DNA of 64,000 nt. Origin: Humisphaera borealis (lineage in GTDB: Bacteria; Planctomycetota; Phycisphaerae; Tepidisphaerales; Tepidisphaeraceae). The stretch lies in contig NZ_CP063458.1 of assembly GCF_015169395.1 (NCBI RefSeq), forward strand, positions 1,984,001 through 2,048,000, given 5' to 3'. A program made the translations under genes and the position numbers. The notes beneath the pieces were generated by a model, which had not been told where the DNA came from, ran no database searches, and worked only from the letters and a program-made list of their open reading frames with translations. The first letter of the stretch is position 1, and every line of letters begins with the position of its first letter. Positions 26,981 to 31,218 of this stretch are shown in pieces.

Positions 26981-27070
26981 GCAACAGGCAGAGGGCAGGA
27001 GCCGGTAACCAGAAAACGATGAGCCGCGAGTGTTCTTCTTCTCCGCTCTGCGTACTACCTACTGCCTACC
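26981..27070. repeat. Degenerate inverted pair related to the CTACTGC array
   Basis: GGCAACAGGCAGAGGGCAGG at 26981-27000 faces CTACCTACTGCCTACC at 27055-27070. The latter contains the stop codon of the ligase-like gene, exactly as the CTACTGC array contains the stop codon of yidC. Confidence 0.6.
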
Positions 27071-28548
27071 GCATCCACCCATCCTTTCACAATGTTCTCG
27101 GTCTTCATGATCTCGTAGAGCTTTTCGATCTGCTCCTGCGATTCGCTCACCCGGATCTCGCGCTCCAGCGGGGTTTTGCGGTTCGGGCTGAAGTCGGTGA
27201 AGTACGCGACGAACGCCGGCCACTCACCATTACCGGCATCGCCGTGCTTGTTGGTCTTCCAAAGCAGCAGCTTGCGGACCATCGTTTGTCCCTTAAGTTG
27301 CTTGGTGTAGACCTCCCGCTTCAGGATCGTGCTGCCGGGAAGCGTCAACTGCCGCGCATCGCGGTCGATCATCGGCACTTCGACGATATCCGCGACCTGC
27401 TGTAGCCGAAGGTCCTGCGGGTTGGGCGTCTTGTCCTGCCGCTTGCGGAGGAACTGCGGCGAGATCGGGCTGGCCAGCGGCAACCGGCGGACGGCGCCGT
27501 ACTTCGCCGCGCGGTTGTCCCAGTTCAGCACCATCCGGTCCACGCTGCCGCCGCGGGTGTTCTGGCTGATCAGGTCCAGGCAGCTGATCTCGATCACCCA
27601 CTCCGGCCGGACCATCTGGTAGGCGAGCTGCTCGTTGACCTCGGTGTATTCGCTTTCGGCGGGGATGTCCTTCAGATCGGAGAGAAACTCCCTCCGCTGG
27701 TCGTCGGTGAAGCCGCCGCCCACGCGCCCAAGCACCTGGTAGGTTTCGTCCGGCCGCATAAGGCCGATGAGCATGTCGTGCATCATGCCGGCGCGGTCGG
27801 GCTCGTTGCTTTCGGTGAACCCCAGCACGGCCACATCGAGCGTCGACCGCGGCTTGATCTTGTACAGCCCGGCGACGTCCGACCGGGCGACGATCCCCTC
27901 GGCGTTCTCCCCTTCGACCCAGGTCTCGTAGTGTTTCTCGACATCGGCCAGCGTTTTGACGTGGTGCGTCTCTACTGGATGGATGCCCTTGCCGCTTTTG
28001 AAGTACTTTTCGATCTGCTTCCAGTTGTCGGCGTAGCGGTGCGACAGCTTCTTCTGGTCGATCTCCAGGATGTCGAACACCGCAAACCGAAGCGTGCCGA
28101 CCTCGTCCGCATTGGCCGGCTGCCGGGCGACGCGCGACACGTCGTGGCACCGCGGCCGGCGATCGGTGCGGGCGACGTAAAGTTCACCGGCGAAGACGGC
28201 CGAATCGACCTTCGCGTCCTTCAACAGCTTGACCGCCTCGGCCATGAACGGAAGCCCGACGCGAACCGTCCCGCCGGGGTTGACGATGCAGCAGGAACCG
28301 GACTGAACAACCAGAAGGCTGAACTCGCCGTCCACCTTGCGGCTGACGAAGTAGTCGGATTCCGGCAGTTTGAGTTTCATCGTCGGCTTATCGAACGCCG
28401 CCATGTGCGACGCGAGCATCCGCCGATGCTCCTGGGCCATCAGGTGCCAGAAGGGATTGGTCAGCGCCCTCGCGTTGGCGACGCCGTAGTCGCCCATGAG
28501 AAGTTGGACGCGGGAGGTATCGACGAGGGGGTTGTTGGTGTTGGCCAT
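27055..28548 (-). CDS. ATP-dependent DNA ligase-like protein
   Basis: 497 residues. The nucleotidyltransferase motifs are visible in order: motif I VSRKVDGEFSL near residue 60-70 (Lys becomes adenylated), motif III FAGELYVARTD near 119, motif IIIa LRFAVFDILEID near 152, motif IV EGIVARS near 219 and motif V LYKIKPRSTLDVAVLGF near 229. An OB-fold-like part follows, then about 180 residues without clear assignment. It therefore has the adenylation machinery of an ATP-dependent ligase and is not the NAD-dependent LigA type. It lies downstream of, and on the same strand as, a SWIM-ligase-WGR fusion, with a small membrane-protein gene between them. The pair probably serves accessory DNA repair; substrate untested. 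The stop codon lies in a CTACTGC-like motif. Confidence 0.8.
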   Translation of the reverse strand: MANTNNPLVDTSRVQLLMGDYGVANARALTNPFWHLMAQEHRRMLASHMAAFDKPTMKLKLPESDYFVSRKVDGEFSLLVVQSGSCCIVNPGGTVRVGLPFMAEAVKLLKDAKVDSAVFAGELYVARTDRRPRCHDVSRVARQPANADEVGTLRFAVFDILEIDQKKLSHRYADNWKQIEKYFKSGKGIHPVETHHVKTLADVEKHYETWVEGENAEGIVARSDVAGLYKIKPRSTLDVAVLGFTESNEPDRAGMMHDMLIGLMRPDETYQVLGRVGGGFTDDQRREFLSDLKDIPAESEYTEVNEQLAYQMVRPEWVIEISCLDLISQNTRGGSVDRMVLNWDNRAAKYGAVRRLPLASPISPQFLRKRQDKTPNPQDLRLQQVADIVEVPMIDRDARQLTLPGSTILKREVYTKQLKGQTMVRKLLLWKTNKHGDAGNGEWPAFVAYFTDFSPNRKTPLEREIRVSESQEQIEKLYEIMKTENIVKGWVDAVGSR

Positions 28549-28605
28549 GATAGTGTCCGATCCTCATTCAAAGCCGTCGTGTCCAAATCCACTGGGCATT
28601 TCAGA

Positions 28606-28636
28606 TTGGAAGGGCTTCAACGTACCGCCCTTCCAA
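28606..28636. repeat. Hairpin upstream of the ligase-like gene
   Basis: TTGGAAGGGC at 28606-28615 and its perfect complement at 28627-28636 flank an 11-base loop. No T-run follows on either strand, so it may be a leader structure or a weak terminator for the small membrane gene upstream. Confidence 0.6.
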
Positions 28637-28691
28637 ACTTTCGCCCGGAGTTCCCAAGGAGGGGGACAAACGTTCCATCCGATGCTTGTGC

Positions 28692-28970
28692 CTAACCAGA
28701 TCTACTGCGTTTTCGCAACTCCGCGAGATGGACGATGGCAATAATCCACGGCAACAGGGTGAACGGAAGCAGGATTAGCAACATGACGGCGATTTGCCCA
28801 AGGTTGAGGCATGCCAACCAATTGAGCTTGCCTCCAACCTCGCTCGGAAATTCGATGATGACGAAGATCGCCGGAAGCATGCTCCCGAAAAGGGTGAAAA
28901 TGACTGCGCCAGCGACGAGTTCTCCTCGCGATTGTTCTTCAAGCGGCTTTGTATTTCCGGTGCTTGGCAC
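28692..28970 (-). CDS. Small membrane protein between the two ligase genes, hypothetical
   Basis: 92 residues from a GTG. Two hydrophobic segments are evident: residues about 17-40 (GELVAGAVIFTLFGSMLPAIFVIIEF) and 49-83 (WLACLNLGQIAVMLLILLPFTLLPWIIAIVHLA), followed by a basic tail LRKRSRSG. No family recognised. It lies in the same direction as both ligase genes, 54 bases after the SWIM-ligase-WGR stop, and could be cotranscribed. A longer overlapping frame (to 29062) is less convincing because its N-terminus is Arg-rich. Confidence 0.4.
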   Translation of the reverse strand: MPSTGNTKPLEEQSRGELVAGAVIFTLFGSMLPAIFVIIEFPSEVGGKLNWLACLNLGQIAVMLLILLPFTLLPWIIAIVHLAELRKRSRSG

Positions 28971-29024
28971 GGCAAATCTTTCCGTCGCAGTGTGTTGCCT
29001 GTCGTGGCGGCAAAAGAGTGTACT

Positions 29025-30434
29025 CTACACTTCGTCATAGCCCTCGCCCGTCTTCTCCTCAATCAACTTCTCCGCCTGCTTCTTCGCCGCATCTTCGTTC
29101 GCAAAGGTCTTGGACTTACTTTGTCCGGCCGAGCCGATGCGGCCCCACTTGGTGGTGACATCGCAACCCGACCGCCCGACCTCCCAGAACTTGCTGGACT
29201 TCTCGTCGTTGTATTCGAACCGCCGAAACGCTGGGGGCGCAACGTTGCTACCGGACTCACCCGTCTTCGAACTCGGGCCGTTCGTGCCGGGCTCGGTTTC
29301 TCCGGCGGGCAGTGCCCGCCCTACCTGTACGACGGTGCTGGACTTGGTCGCAGCTGCCTTGCCGGAAGTCGTCGCCGCCGGGCCCGACGGCACAACACCG
29401 CCGTTCGTCTTGCCGTCCGTCCGCACGCCGACATAACTCGGGAACCTCGGCACACCCGCTTCCGACAACTCCTGATAGCGGAAGGTAATTGTCGCGCCGA
29501 CGGCCGGCGGTGCGCCGCGTTCTTTGTCCGAAAACCCCGTGCCGACGGCGAACTGCGTCCCATCCGCCAACTTCACCAGCAGCGCACCGAGCCGACCCTT
29601 GTGCTTGCCCAGCCCGTCCTGATGACCGATCACCATTGCCTCGGCGTCGTGGAACGTCTTGACCTTCAGCAGTGTGCTCGACCGGCCGGCGGCATATTTG
29701 CTGCCGGGCTGGCGGAGCATCAGCCCTTCGCCGCCCAGCGCTTCGACACGCGACAGCTCAGTCCGCAACGACGCGATGTCCCTGCAAAGCTGCTGTGCGT
29801 GCGGCTCGGCATACTTTGCCTTGCTTCCGGCAAGGGTGTCGCGCAAAAGTGCGAGCCGATCCTCGAATCCACCGGCCGCCGCCGGCGCGTCGAACACCAG
29901 GTACTGAACTTCCTTCCAAAGTTCCGACTTGTCCTGCCGCCGGACCACGCTCACCGTCCGCTGGAACTTCTTACGGCCGATCCACAGTTCGCCGTCGAGA
30001 GGTGTATTCGGCAGGCCTTCGATGAACCAATCCGGTGCGTGATACAGGTTGCCCTGTCGCGACAGGAACTGCTTTCCATCCCAATAGGCCCGGACGCCGT
30101 CGAGTTTCTCGCTCATCCACCAGCCGGCGAGGTCGGCGGCGTTGTCCCAGCTTTCGGCGAGCAGGATCGGCGGACCGGCTACCTCGTTACCCTCTTCGTC
30201 GACCTTGGTCGCCTTCACCGGCTTCTGCGGAAGCGCACCGCCCAGGCGGGCCTCCTCGGCGGCATCGCCTCGCAGCTTGCGAAGGTGTTTACAGGTGCGA
30301 ACTTCGATCGCGGTGGACTGGTTCCGCCACGCCGGGCAGGTGCAGGAATAGACCCCGCCGCTGTTCCGCAGTACGTACGGCTTACTGCCGGAGCCCTGCA
30401 TTTCTGTCGATTCGCCGTCGGCAAGATCAGCCAT
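29025..30434 (-). CDS. SWIM zinc finger - ATP-dependent DNA ligase - WGR fusion protein
   Basis: 469 residues, three modules. (1) A SWIM zinc finger at about 29-52: CTCPAWRNQ, then CKHL, giving CxC...CxH. (2) An ATP-dependent ligase core with motif I MSEKLDGVRAYWDG (Lys about 109), motif III LDGELWIGR (about 146), motif IIIa VQYLVFDAP (about 177), motif IV GGEGLMLRQPGS (about 235), motif V LKVKTFHDAEAMVIGHQ (about 258), and an OB fold ending RFPSYVGVRTDG, which resembles LigE-type minimal ligases. (3) After a Gly/Ser/Thr linker (about 342-392), a WGR domain at about 394-462 (FWEVGRSG, TTKWGRIGSAGQ). SWIM and WGR are nucleic-acid-binding or damage-recognising modules, so this is likely a targeted repair ligase. 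It is divergent from recX. Confidence 0.85.
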   Translation of the reverse strand: MADLADGESTEMQGSGSKPYVLRNSGGVYSCTCPAWRNQSTAIEVRTCKHLRKLRGDAAEEARLGGALPQKPVKATKVDEEGNEVAGPPILLAESWDNAADLAGWWMSEKLDGVRAYWDGKQFLSRQGNLYHAPDWFIEGLPNTPLDGELWIGRKKFQRTVSVVRRQDKSELWKEVQYLVFDAPAAAGGFEDRLALLRDTLAGSKAKYAEPHAQQLCRDIASLRTELSRVEALGGEGLMLRQPGSKYAAGRSSTLLKVKTFHDAEAMVIGHQDGLGKHKGRLGALLVKLADGTQFAVGTGFSDKERGAPPAVGATITFRYQELSEAGVPRFPSYVGVRTDGKTNGGVVPSGPAATTSGKAAATKSSTVVQVGRALPAGETEPGTNGPSSKTGESGSNVAPPAFRRFEYNDEKSSKFWEVGRSGCDVTTKWGRIGSAGQSKSKTFANEDAAKKQAEKLIEEKTGEGYDEV

Positions 30435-30579
30435 AAGGTTCCCCGCGGAAATGTGTCATAATCGCGTCGTTGATTTTGCCTCGAATCAGCCGCGCGCTAT
30501 GATGACCACAGTGCTAACGTATACCGTACACAAACTTTGACGTCAACTTCTTGTTGCCCCTCGTTAAACTGAGCTAAAT
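30435..30579. promoter_or_regulatory. Divergent control region between the ligase fusion and recX
   Basis: 145 bases between two genes read in opposite directions. A possible -10-like TATGAT lies near 30498-30503. The segment GTATACCGTACAC at about 30519-30531 is an imperfect inverted repeat and could be an operator. Neither is proven. GGGGA before the ligase start is a plausible ribosome binding site. Confidence 0.3.
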
Positions 30580-31218
30580 GTGCCGACGATCACCCGCATC
30601 TCCGAGCAGCGCCGGCGGAAGAACCGCCGCAACGTGCATCTCGATGGCGCGTTTGCGTTCTCCTGTAATATCAATGTGATCGCCCGGTTTCGGCTCGTCG
30701 AAGGACAGCGTCTGACGCCCGACGAGGTGACGACTATCCTGCAAGGGGAAGTCCGCCAGGAGTGCTTTGACGATGCGATGAAATCGCTGCAGATGCGGCT
30801 CCACAGCAGGCGGGAACTGGCGGCGAAGCTGAAGCGGAAGGAGTATGGCGAAACGACCATTGCTGGCGTGCTCGACGATCTTGAGCGCATGGGCTATCTC
30901 GACGACGAACGATTCGCCAAGACCAAGGCGCTATCCGCCGCGCAGCACAAGCACCACGGCAAACGGCGGGCGAAGATCGAACTGATGAAGGCCGGTGTCC
31001 ACAGCAGCACGGCCGACGCCGCCCTCAATGACGTCTACAACCGCCACGACAGCGTCGCCGTCGCCCGGCAACTGGCGCAGAAGCAGGCGGCCCGGCTGTT
31101 GAAACTCGAACCCGCCGTCGCCCGGCGGCGACTGGTGGGCATGCTGCAGCGGCGCGGGTTTTCGTTCGAGGAAATCAAGCCGGTGGTGGATGAGGTGTTG
31201 GGGCAGGAAAGGGATTGA
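30580..31218 (+). CDS. recX: Regulatory protein RecX
   Basis: 212 residues, with a GTG start (CCGACGATCACC follows). RecX binds RecA and limits or reshapes RecA filaments in recombination and the SOS response. The three-helix RecX repeats are visible: ALKSLQ-like MKSLQMRLHSRRELAAKLKRKEY (about 67-90), IAGVLDDLERMGYLDDERFAKTKA (about 92-116) with the hallmark GYLDDERFA, then GKRRAKIELMKAGVHSSTADAALNDVY and the C-terminal RRRLVGMLQRRGFSFEEIKPVVDEV. The N-terminal 60 residues form a strand-rich extension (RRKNRRNVHLDGAFAFSCN). It is not next to recA here; it is divergent from a repair-type ligase gene, which makes a shared DNA-damage response plausible. Confidence 0.9.
   Translation: MPTITRISEQRRRKNRRNVHLDGAFAFSCNINVIARFRLVEGQRLTPDEVTTILQGEVRQECFDDAMKSLQMRLHSRRELAAKLKRKEYGETTIAGVLDDLERMGYLDDERFAKTKALSAAQHKHHGKRRAKIELMKAGVHSSTADAALNDVYNRHDSVAVARQLAQKQAARLLKLEPAVARRRLVGMLQRRGFSFEEIKPVVDEVLGQERD

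Follow-up and report, generated by a model that had tools for sequence, protein, structure and literature searches.

The window, that is, the whole stretch of 64,000 nucleotides of Humisphaera borealis DNA that was analysed, contained two predicted ATP-dependent ligase genes on the same strand (products P0001 and P0002, the latter called ligase 2 below), a small membrane-peptide gene between them and a divergent recX (Table 1). A sequence-only reading made earlier of this DNA had its coordinates, strands and domain calls all correct, and both its two-helix peptide between the ligases and its divergent recX were confirmed.

Table 1. Features of the ligase locus, by position in the window
Feature	Position	Strand	Remark
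Second ATP-dependent ligase P0002 (ligase 2)	27055..28548	-	497 aa; Pfam A_M and A_C above cut-off
Ligase 2 C-terminal domain, residues 408-497, unclassified, perhaps WGR-like	27058..27327	-	no Pfam match
Small two-helix membrane peptide	28692..28970	-	92-aa ORF; two hydrophobic stretches; between the ligases
SWIM-LigE-WGR ATP-dependent DNA ligase P0001	29025..30434	-	469 aa; Pfam and NCBIfam above cut-off
WGR domain, P0001 residues 402-469	29028..29231	-	PF05406, 65.4 bits
Disordered linker, P0001 residues 345-397	29244..29402	-	pLDDT <50
LigE catalytic core (nucleotidyltransferase and OB), P0001 residues 86-341	29412..30179	-	catalytic residues invariant
SWIM-type zinc motif CxC-x14-CxH, P0001 residues 31-50	30285..30344	-	ligands invariant
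Divergent promoter region recX / SWIM-LigE-WGR	30435..30579	.	no LexA-like repeat of the type in the lexA promoter
recX, neighbour, probably not a module member	30580..31218	+	Pfam RecX HTH1-3

The membrane peptide had no homologue in any of 80 relative loci (the best 80 of 199). A perfect 10-bp inverted repeat without a T run, TTGGAAGGGC-N11-GCCCTTCCAA, lay in the gap that separates the membrane peptide from ligase 2 (window 28606-28636). The recX product passed all three RecX HTH Pfam models and a gap of 145 bp separated its gene from the P0001 start, but recX was near SWIM-LigE in none of the 80 relative loci sampled (best 80 of 199), which argues against the module membership that had been proposed for it. 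The promoter of the lexA gene of H. borealis (L147) contained two GAAC-N7-GAAC direct repeats, a candidate LexA site; no repeat of this candidate type occurred in the divergent promoter region, and one-mismatch matches across the window were at chance level. With no site found, LexA control of the ligase locus is not supported, and neither is the earlier proposal of damage induction through the promoter shared with recX. In reverse complement, the repeat upstream of lexA resembles the alphaproteobacterial LexA site.

Domains and structure of the two ligases and of proteins A and B

P0001 scored 343 bits against the LigE equivalog model NF006592/PRK09125 (cut-off 200) and passed DNA_ligase_OB_2 (92.5 bits), DNA_ligase_A_M (33.3 bits) and WGR PF05406 (cut-off 22); it matched LigE 4d05 in the PDB (E 8e-66), and its WGR domain was 46% identical to that of E. 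coli YehF. The zinc ligands C31-x-C33-x14-C48-x-H50 were invariant in 54/54 aligned sequences, as were the core residues K110, D112, G113, R115, E149, F181, E236, K257 and K259. The domain search proposed in the sequence-only reading thus stood for DNA_ligase_A_M and WGR and failed for SWIM PF04434, which matched neither full P0001 nor its N-terminal segment; the name SWIM for P0001 therefore rests on the CxC..CxH motif. In sequence and alignment, P0001 had no periplasmic leader and began with the SWIM motif.

The AlphaFold2 model of P0001, made with the 54-sequence alignment, had a mean pLDDT of 84, with confident SWIM (about 90), ligase and WGR (about 89-98 by block) segments and a disordered linker. 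Residues 86-341 aligned with LigE 4d05 at Z 28.4 in VIA-align, and at Z 25-28 across solved LigE structures, the Foldseek and VIA lists being taken up by the ligase core and SWIM and WGR folds lying outside their reach. The fusion supports the idea of targeting built into the ligase, in which the two flanking parts may bind DNA.

Ligase 2 passed DNA_ligase_A_M (39.7 bits) and DNA_ligase_A_C (36.3 bits), its motifs KxDG, GEL, F..FD, EGxVxR and KxKP were invariant in 6 aligned sequences, and both the nucleotidyltransferase and the OB domain were present, together with motifs I, III, IV and V, in agreement with the second same-strand ligase of 497 residues described before. It is accordingly a predicted ATP-dependent DNA ligase, which by its domains and motifs would seal nicks. 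From its sequence alone, P0002 gave a fold of no informative value (pLDDT 37). The last 90 residues matched no known family in Pfam; in hhalign they matched WGR with a probability of 22.8 (E 9e-4) and a score above 39/39 column shuffles, and their assignment as a WGR domain, being suggestive only, was not adopted. In G170, a homologue of ligase 2 was fused to an AAA ATPase domain (PF00004, 137.6 bits; L129 2404-5535). Ligase 2 was rare (7/392 phylum genomes).

Two further, uncharacterised proteins, A of about 205 aa and B of some 235 aa or more, were encoded by adjacent genes, either close to ligase 2 or elsewhere in a genome that has it. Pairs were found in L126, L127, L130 and H. borealis, where A and B were adjacent at C1:4639945-4641747 (47% and 61% identical). 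Neither had a Pfam, NCBIfam or PDB relative, and homology of protein A to Ku was rejected, since hhalign gave a probability of 0.2 and a score no better than those of column shuffles.

Distribution and gene neighbourhoods

In 84,980 genomes scanned, P0001 had 199 relatives, and the best 80 were kept. All 80 (best 80 of 199) carried the SWIM motif and most carried WGR, contrary to the earlier impression that the fusion is uncommon. SWIM-LigE spanned at least six phyla (Planctomycetota, Verrucomicrobiota, Melainabacteria/Cyanobacteria, Myxococcota, Acidobacteriota and Riflebacteria). A tree of 96 LigE cores held at least 65 SWIM-LigE-WGR and 23 SWIM-LigE proteins, the WGR pattern used for the labels missing some cases such as L119. 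The SWIM-bearing clade was separated from LigE without SWIM (support 100/96) in a tree whose root is unsure, the outgroup branches being long; its sole 'LigE' member, L012, has a sequence that begins at a contig edge, and WGR was gained or lost many times within it. P0001 grouped with Verrucomicrobia (99/96), apart from the SWIM-LigE found in its family (G023), and this placement suggests horizontal transfer. Only 3/26 family genomes gave any match.

Several tandem WGR repeats were present in SWIM-LigE of Obscuribacterales (L089 5875-9492; L101 6001-8385). Gemmataceae-like genomes had a second SWIM gene near SWIM-LigE (L049 2714-3262; L064 3767-4636; L078 7935-8492), which seems to comprise SWIM and the LigE OB domain only, the catalytic domain being gone. 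In Thermoanaerobaculia, a single ORF of 964 aa (L119 6001-8895) encoded SWIM-LigE-WGR-PARP_reg-PARP catalytic.

A LigE survey limited to proteins of 250-370 aa, in its accessible parts, described a leaderless Myxococcales LigE cluster with no shared synteny, called LigE essentially proteobacterial and named no SWIM finger (PMC8455567). Myxococcus SWIM-LigE proteins (about 340 aa) carry SWIM at the place where the leader is missing, and the published cluster is therefore probably SWIM-LigE. No open-access paper found named a ligase of the SWIM-LigE-WGR type or placed any ligase in a YehLMPQ cluster; the combination is widespread, each of its domains is known, and it is apparently undescribed in the open-access literature searched.

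In E. coli K-12, a single same-strand stretch comprises yehF (WGR), yehI (DUF4132), yehL (MoxR), yehM (DUF5682), yehP (vWA) and yehQ (SWIM). SWIM-LigE followed MoxR-DUF5682-vWA-SWIM on the same strand, in the yehL-M-P-Q order, after about 15 nt in a member of Verrucomicrobia (L050) and after about 44 nt in a planctomycete of the Isosphaeraceae (L116). It headed a SWIM-HEAT-MoxR-DUF5682 run in Myxococcales (L085) and had YehLMPQ-like genes nearby in Obscuribacterales (L097). A ligase gene lay inside a YehLMPQ-type operon in L050, L116, L085 and L127. Ligase 2 lay in G196 within a same-strand run, vWA-DUF5682-MoxR-DUF5691-SWIM-ligase 2-B-A, and adjoined B, A, vWA, DUF5682 and MoxR in G034. In G304, A-B-ligase 2 was followed by the first residues of SWIM-LigE at the contig end and preceded by DUF4132 and DUF5682-vWA genes; this row bears out the view that the two same-strand ligases belong together.

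Within about 6 kb of SWIM-LigE, YehLMPQ-type genes were present in 7/80 loci (best 80 of 199); the other 73/80 had no YehLMPQ gene within reach, the flanks being short. DUF5682 genes number about one in several megabases, so that far fewer than one such locus would be expected by chance. The survey of neighbourhoods suggested in the sequence-only reading hence gave no linkage to recX and a conserved linkage in relatives to YehLMPQ-type MoxR/vWA/SWIM/WGR genes, which that reading had missed. DUF5682 occurred in 38/392 phylum genomes overall, in 4/6 further genomes with ligase 2 (Fisher p 9e-4) and in 5/8 further genomes with SWIM-LigE (Fisher p 3e-4), with the own genome excluded and with genome size, which may confound this co-occurrence, uncontrolled.

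Every component of the G196 run was present in H. borealis, split over three sites at 2.01, 3.65 and 4.64 Mb. The 3.65 Mb cluster (C1:3648309-3656497) contained SWIM (448 aa), DUF5691, MoxR, DUF5682 and vWA genes that are clear homologues of the G196 set, and with them all the MoxR, DUF5682, vWA and SWIM genes of a YehLMPQ-type system. The ligase genes (C1:2.01 Mb) were not in an operon with these genes, and since the three groups are megabases apart, their cooperation in H. borealis is inferred from other genomes.

A protein with BRCT and pentapeptide repeats was encoded between a vWA gene and SWIM-LigE-WGR in L084 (1098-3545). Macro-domain or NUDIX genes near some SWIM-LigE genes (L043 1465-1989; L050 9905-10516; L042, L043, L048) hint at an ADP-ribose connection.

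Explanations weighed for the locus

The explanation that we hold to be moderately probable is that both ligases are cytosolic accessory ATP-dependent ligases and the strand-break-sealing arm of a YehLMPQ-type system. It starts from what was observed, namely the domains, the conservation of catalytic residues and of operons, the co-occurrence and a PARP fusion, and it supposes that WGR and SWIM bind DNA, that the proteins interact physically, that strand-break repair is their purpose and that stress induces the genes. Some 10 nt ahead of E. coli yehF, which belongs to the molR locus, stands a LexA-type box (CTG-N10-CAG with an AT-rich core); molR is on a list of LexA-regulated genes (PMC11039860), and Deinococcus DR2173 (WGR) and DRA0166 (DUF4132) are in the DdrO damage regulon (PMC8533742). 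Related genes are thus linked to damage in two unrelated lineages, which points to a WGR-guided, break-sealing arm of the system. The WGR of PARP2 bridges 5'-phosphorylated DNA ends, according to the accessible part of its description (PMC8190142), and this bridging, together with the PARP fusion in L119, suggests that WGR recruits the ligase to breaks.

In P0001, a leaderless minimal LigE core would be tethered by the flexible linker to a PARP-type WGR, which would hold 5'-phosphorylated nicks or ends, give the grip on DNA that minimal LigE lacks and bring the ligase to ligatable breaks. The N-terminal SWIM finger may either bind DNA or attach the ligase to the other components of the system. 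Ligase 2 would act with A, B and the MoxR AAA+, DUF5682, vWA and SWIM proteins, and the MoxR/vWA machine might load, remodel or clear protein at the break. As a possible and tentative extension, MoxR AAA+, vWA, DUF5682, DUF5691 and SWIM proteins, A, B and two WGR-recruited ligases could form a hitherto unrecognised Ku-independent machine for strand-break repair, with optional PARP signalling in the same polypeptide, of which E. coli yehF-yehQ would be the ligase-less form.

It is somewhat unlikely that the two ligases are independent, horizontally acquired chance neighbours, each sealing nicks in general, and that the MoxR linkage elsewhere is incidental. SWIM-LigE was found without ligase 2 in most genomes, the association between the two was not significant without the own genome (p 0.12), and both the clustering of P0001 with Verrucomicrobia rather than its own family and the few matches within the family agree with independence. 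Against it stand operons conserved across several phyla in the E. coli yehLMPQ order, the significant DUF5682 co-occurrence, the presence of A, B and the MoxR cluster in the H. borealis genome, and the row of A, B, ligase 2 and SWIM-LigE in G304.

A biological-conflict (defence) system, in which the ligases would mend the host's genome under nuclease attack or undo such an attack, is unlikely. MoxR-vWA ternary systems have been described as conflict systems frequent among multicellular bacteria, with planctomycetes as one example (PMC7159879), the distribution of the ligases is patchy, and PARP, macro and NUDIX genes occur in or near some loci. PADLOC gave no match, however, so that a known defence family was rejected; no nuclease or toxin effector was recognised in the operons, and a text search of the MoxR-vWA paper (PMC7159879) found neither SWIM nor WGR. 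Ligase 2 had no match in phages, plasmids or viral contigs either, and an origin of its gene from phages or plasmids was rejected.

Ligase 2 is quite unlikely to be an RNA ligase or some other kind of nucleotidyltransferase: it matched Pfam RNA_ligase at 24.3 bits, under the cut-off of 27, and scored far under the cut-offs of all NCBIfam ligase models, but it passed both DNA-ligase Pfam domains, including the DNA-ligase-type OB, and its nearest solved structures were archaeal DNA ligases.

Ku was missing from the near-complete H. borealis genome (PF02735 without a match at E<=1, and a Ku protein query likewise), which makes classical end-joining unlikely. The SOS-induced end-joining module controlled with recX that was first proposed is very improbable, for although a divergent recX, WGR and two ligases share one locus, there is no Ku in the genome, profile comparison showed no likeness of protein A to Ku, recX is not conserved nearby and no LexA-like site was found.

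Comparison with known systems

P0001 has the core and OB domain of LigE (PRK09125; PDB 4d05, 6gdr, 8u6x) at about 41-44% identity and retains the catalytic residues, but unlike canonical proteobacterial LigE it lacks a leader peptide and has an added N-terminal SWIM and C-terminal WGR. With it, cytosolic LigE enzymes now stand outside the periplasmic, proteobacterial picture of the searchable literature. WGR is common to P0001 and WGR-PARP enzymes, and in P0001 a ligase stands where the ADP-ribosyltransferase would be; L119 unites both in one polypeptide. Ligase 2 shares the A_M and A_C domain order of LigD/LigC/LigB-type ligases, but it is far below every equivalog cut-off and differs from them in its extra conserved C-terminal domain, its partners A and B and the lack of Ku.

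Like MoxR-vWA ternary conflict systems, the YehLMPQ-type set combines a MoxR AAA+ protein with a vWA partner. Its other partners are DUF5682, DUF5691, SWIM and WGR, whereas those of the ternary systems are VMAP, iSTAND, FtsH and beta-propeller (PMC7159879), and its MoxR scored below the bpMoxR cut-off.

Ligases with the WGR and SWIM domains of the yeh cluster share an operon with such genes in several phyla, and their presence there gives yehF-yehQ a concrete, testable role in break sealing. To our knowledge, no role is established for E. coli yehF-yehQ, including the SOS-linked molR locus, or for YehLMPQ. The MoxR-DUF5682-vWA-SWIM order of E. coli yehL-M-P-Q is that of L050 and L116, and YehP is 45-52% identical to its counterparts in L050, L097 and L116. 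The E. coli yehF-yehQ cluster has no ligase, whereas in H. borealis WGR and SWIM are fused to one, and the second ligase and proteins A and B are additions relative to the E. coli cluster.
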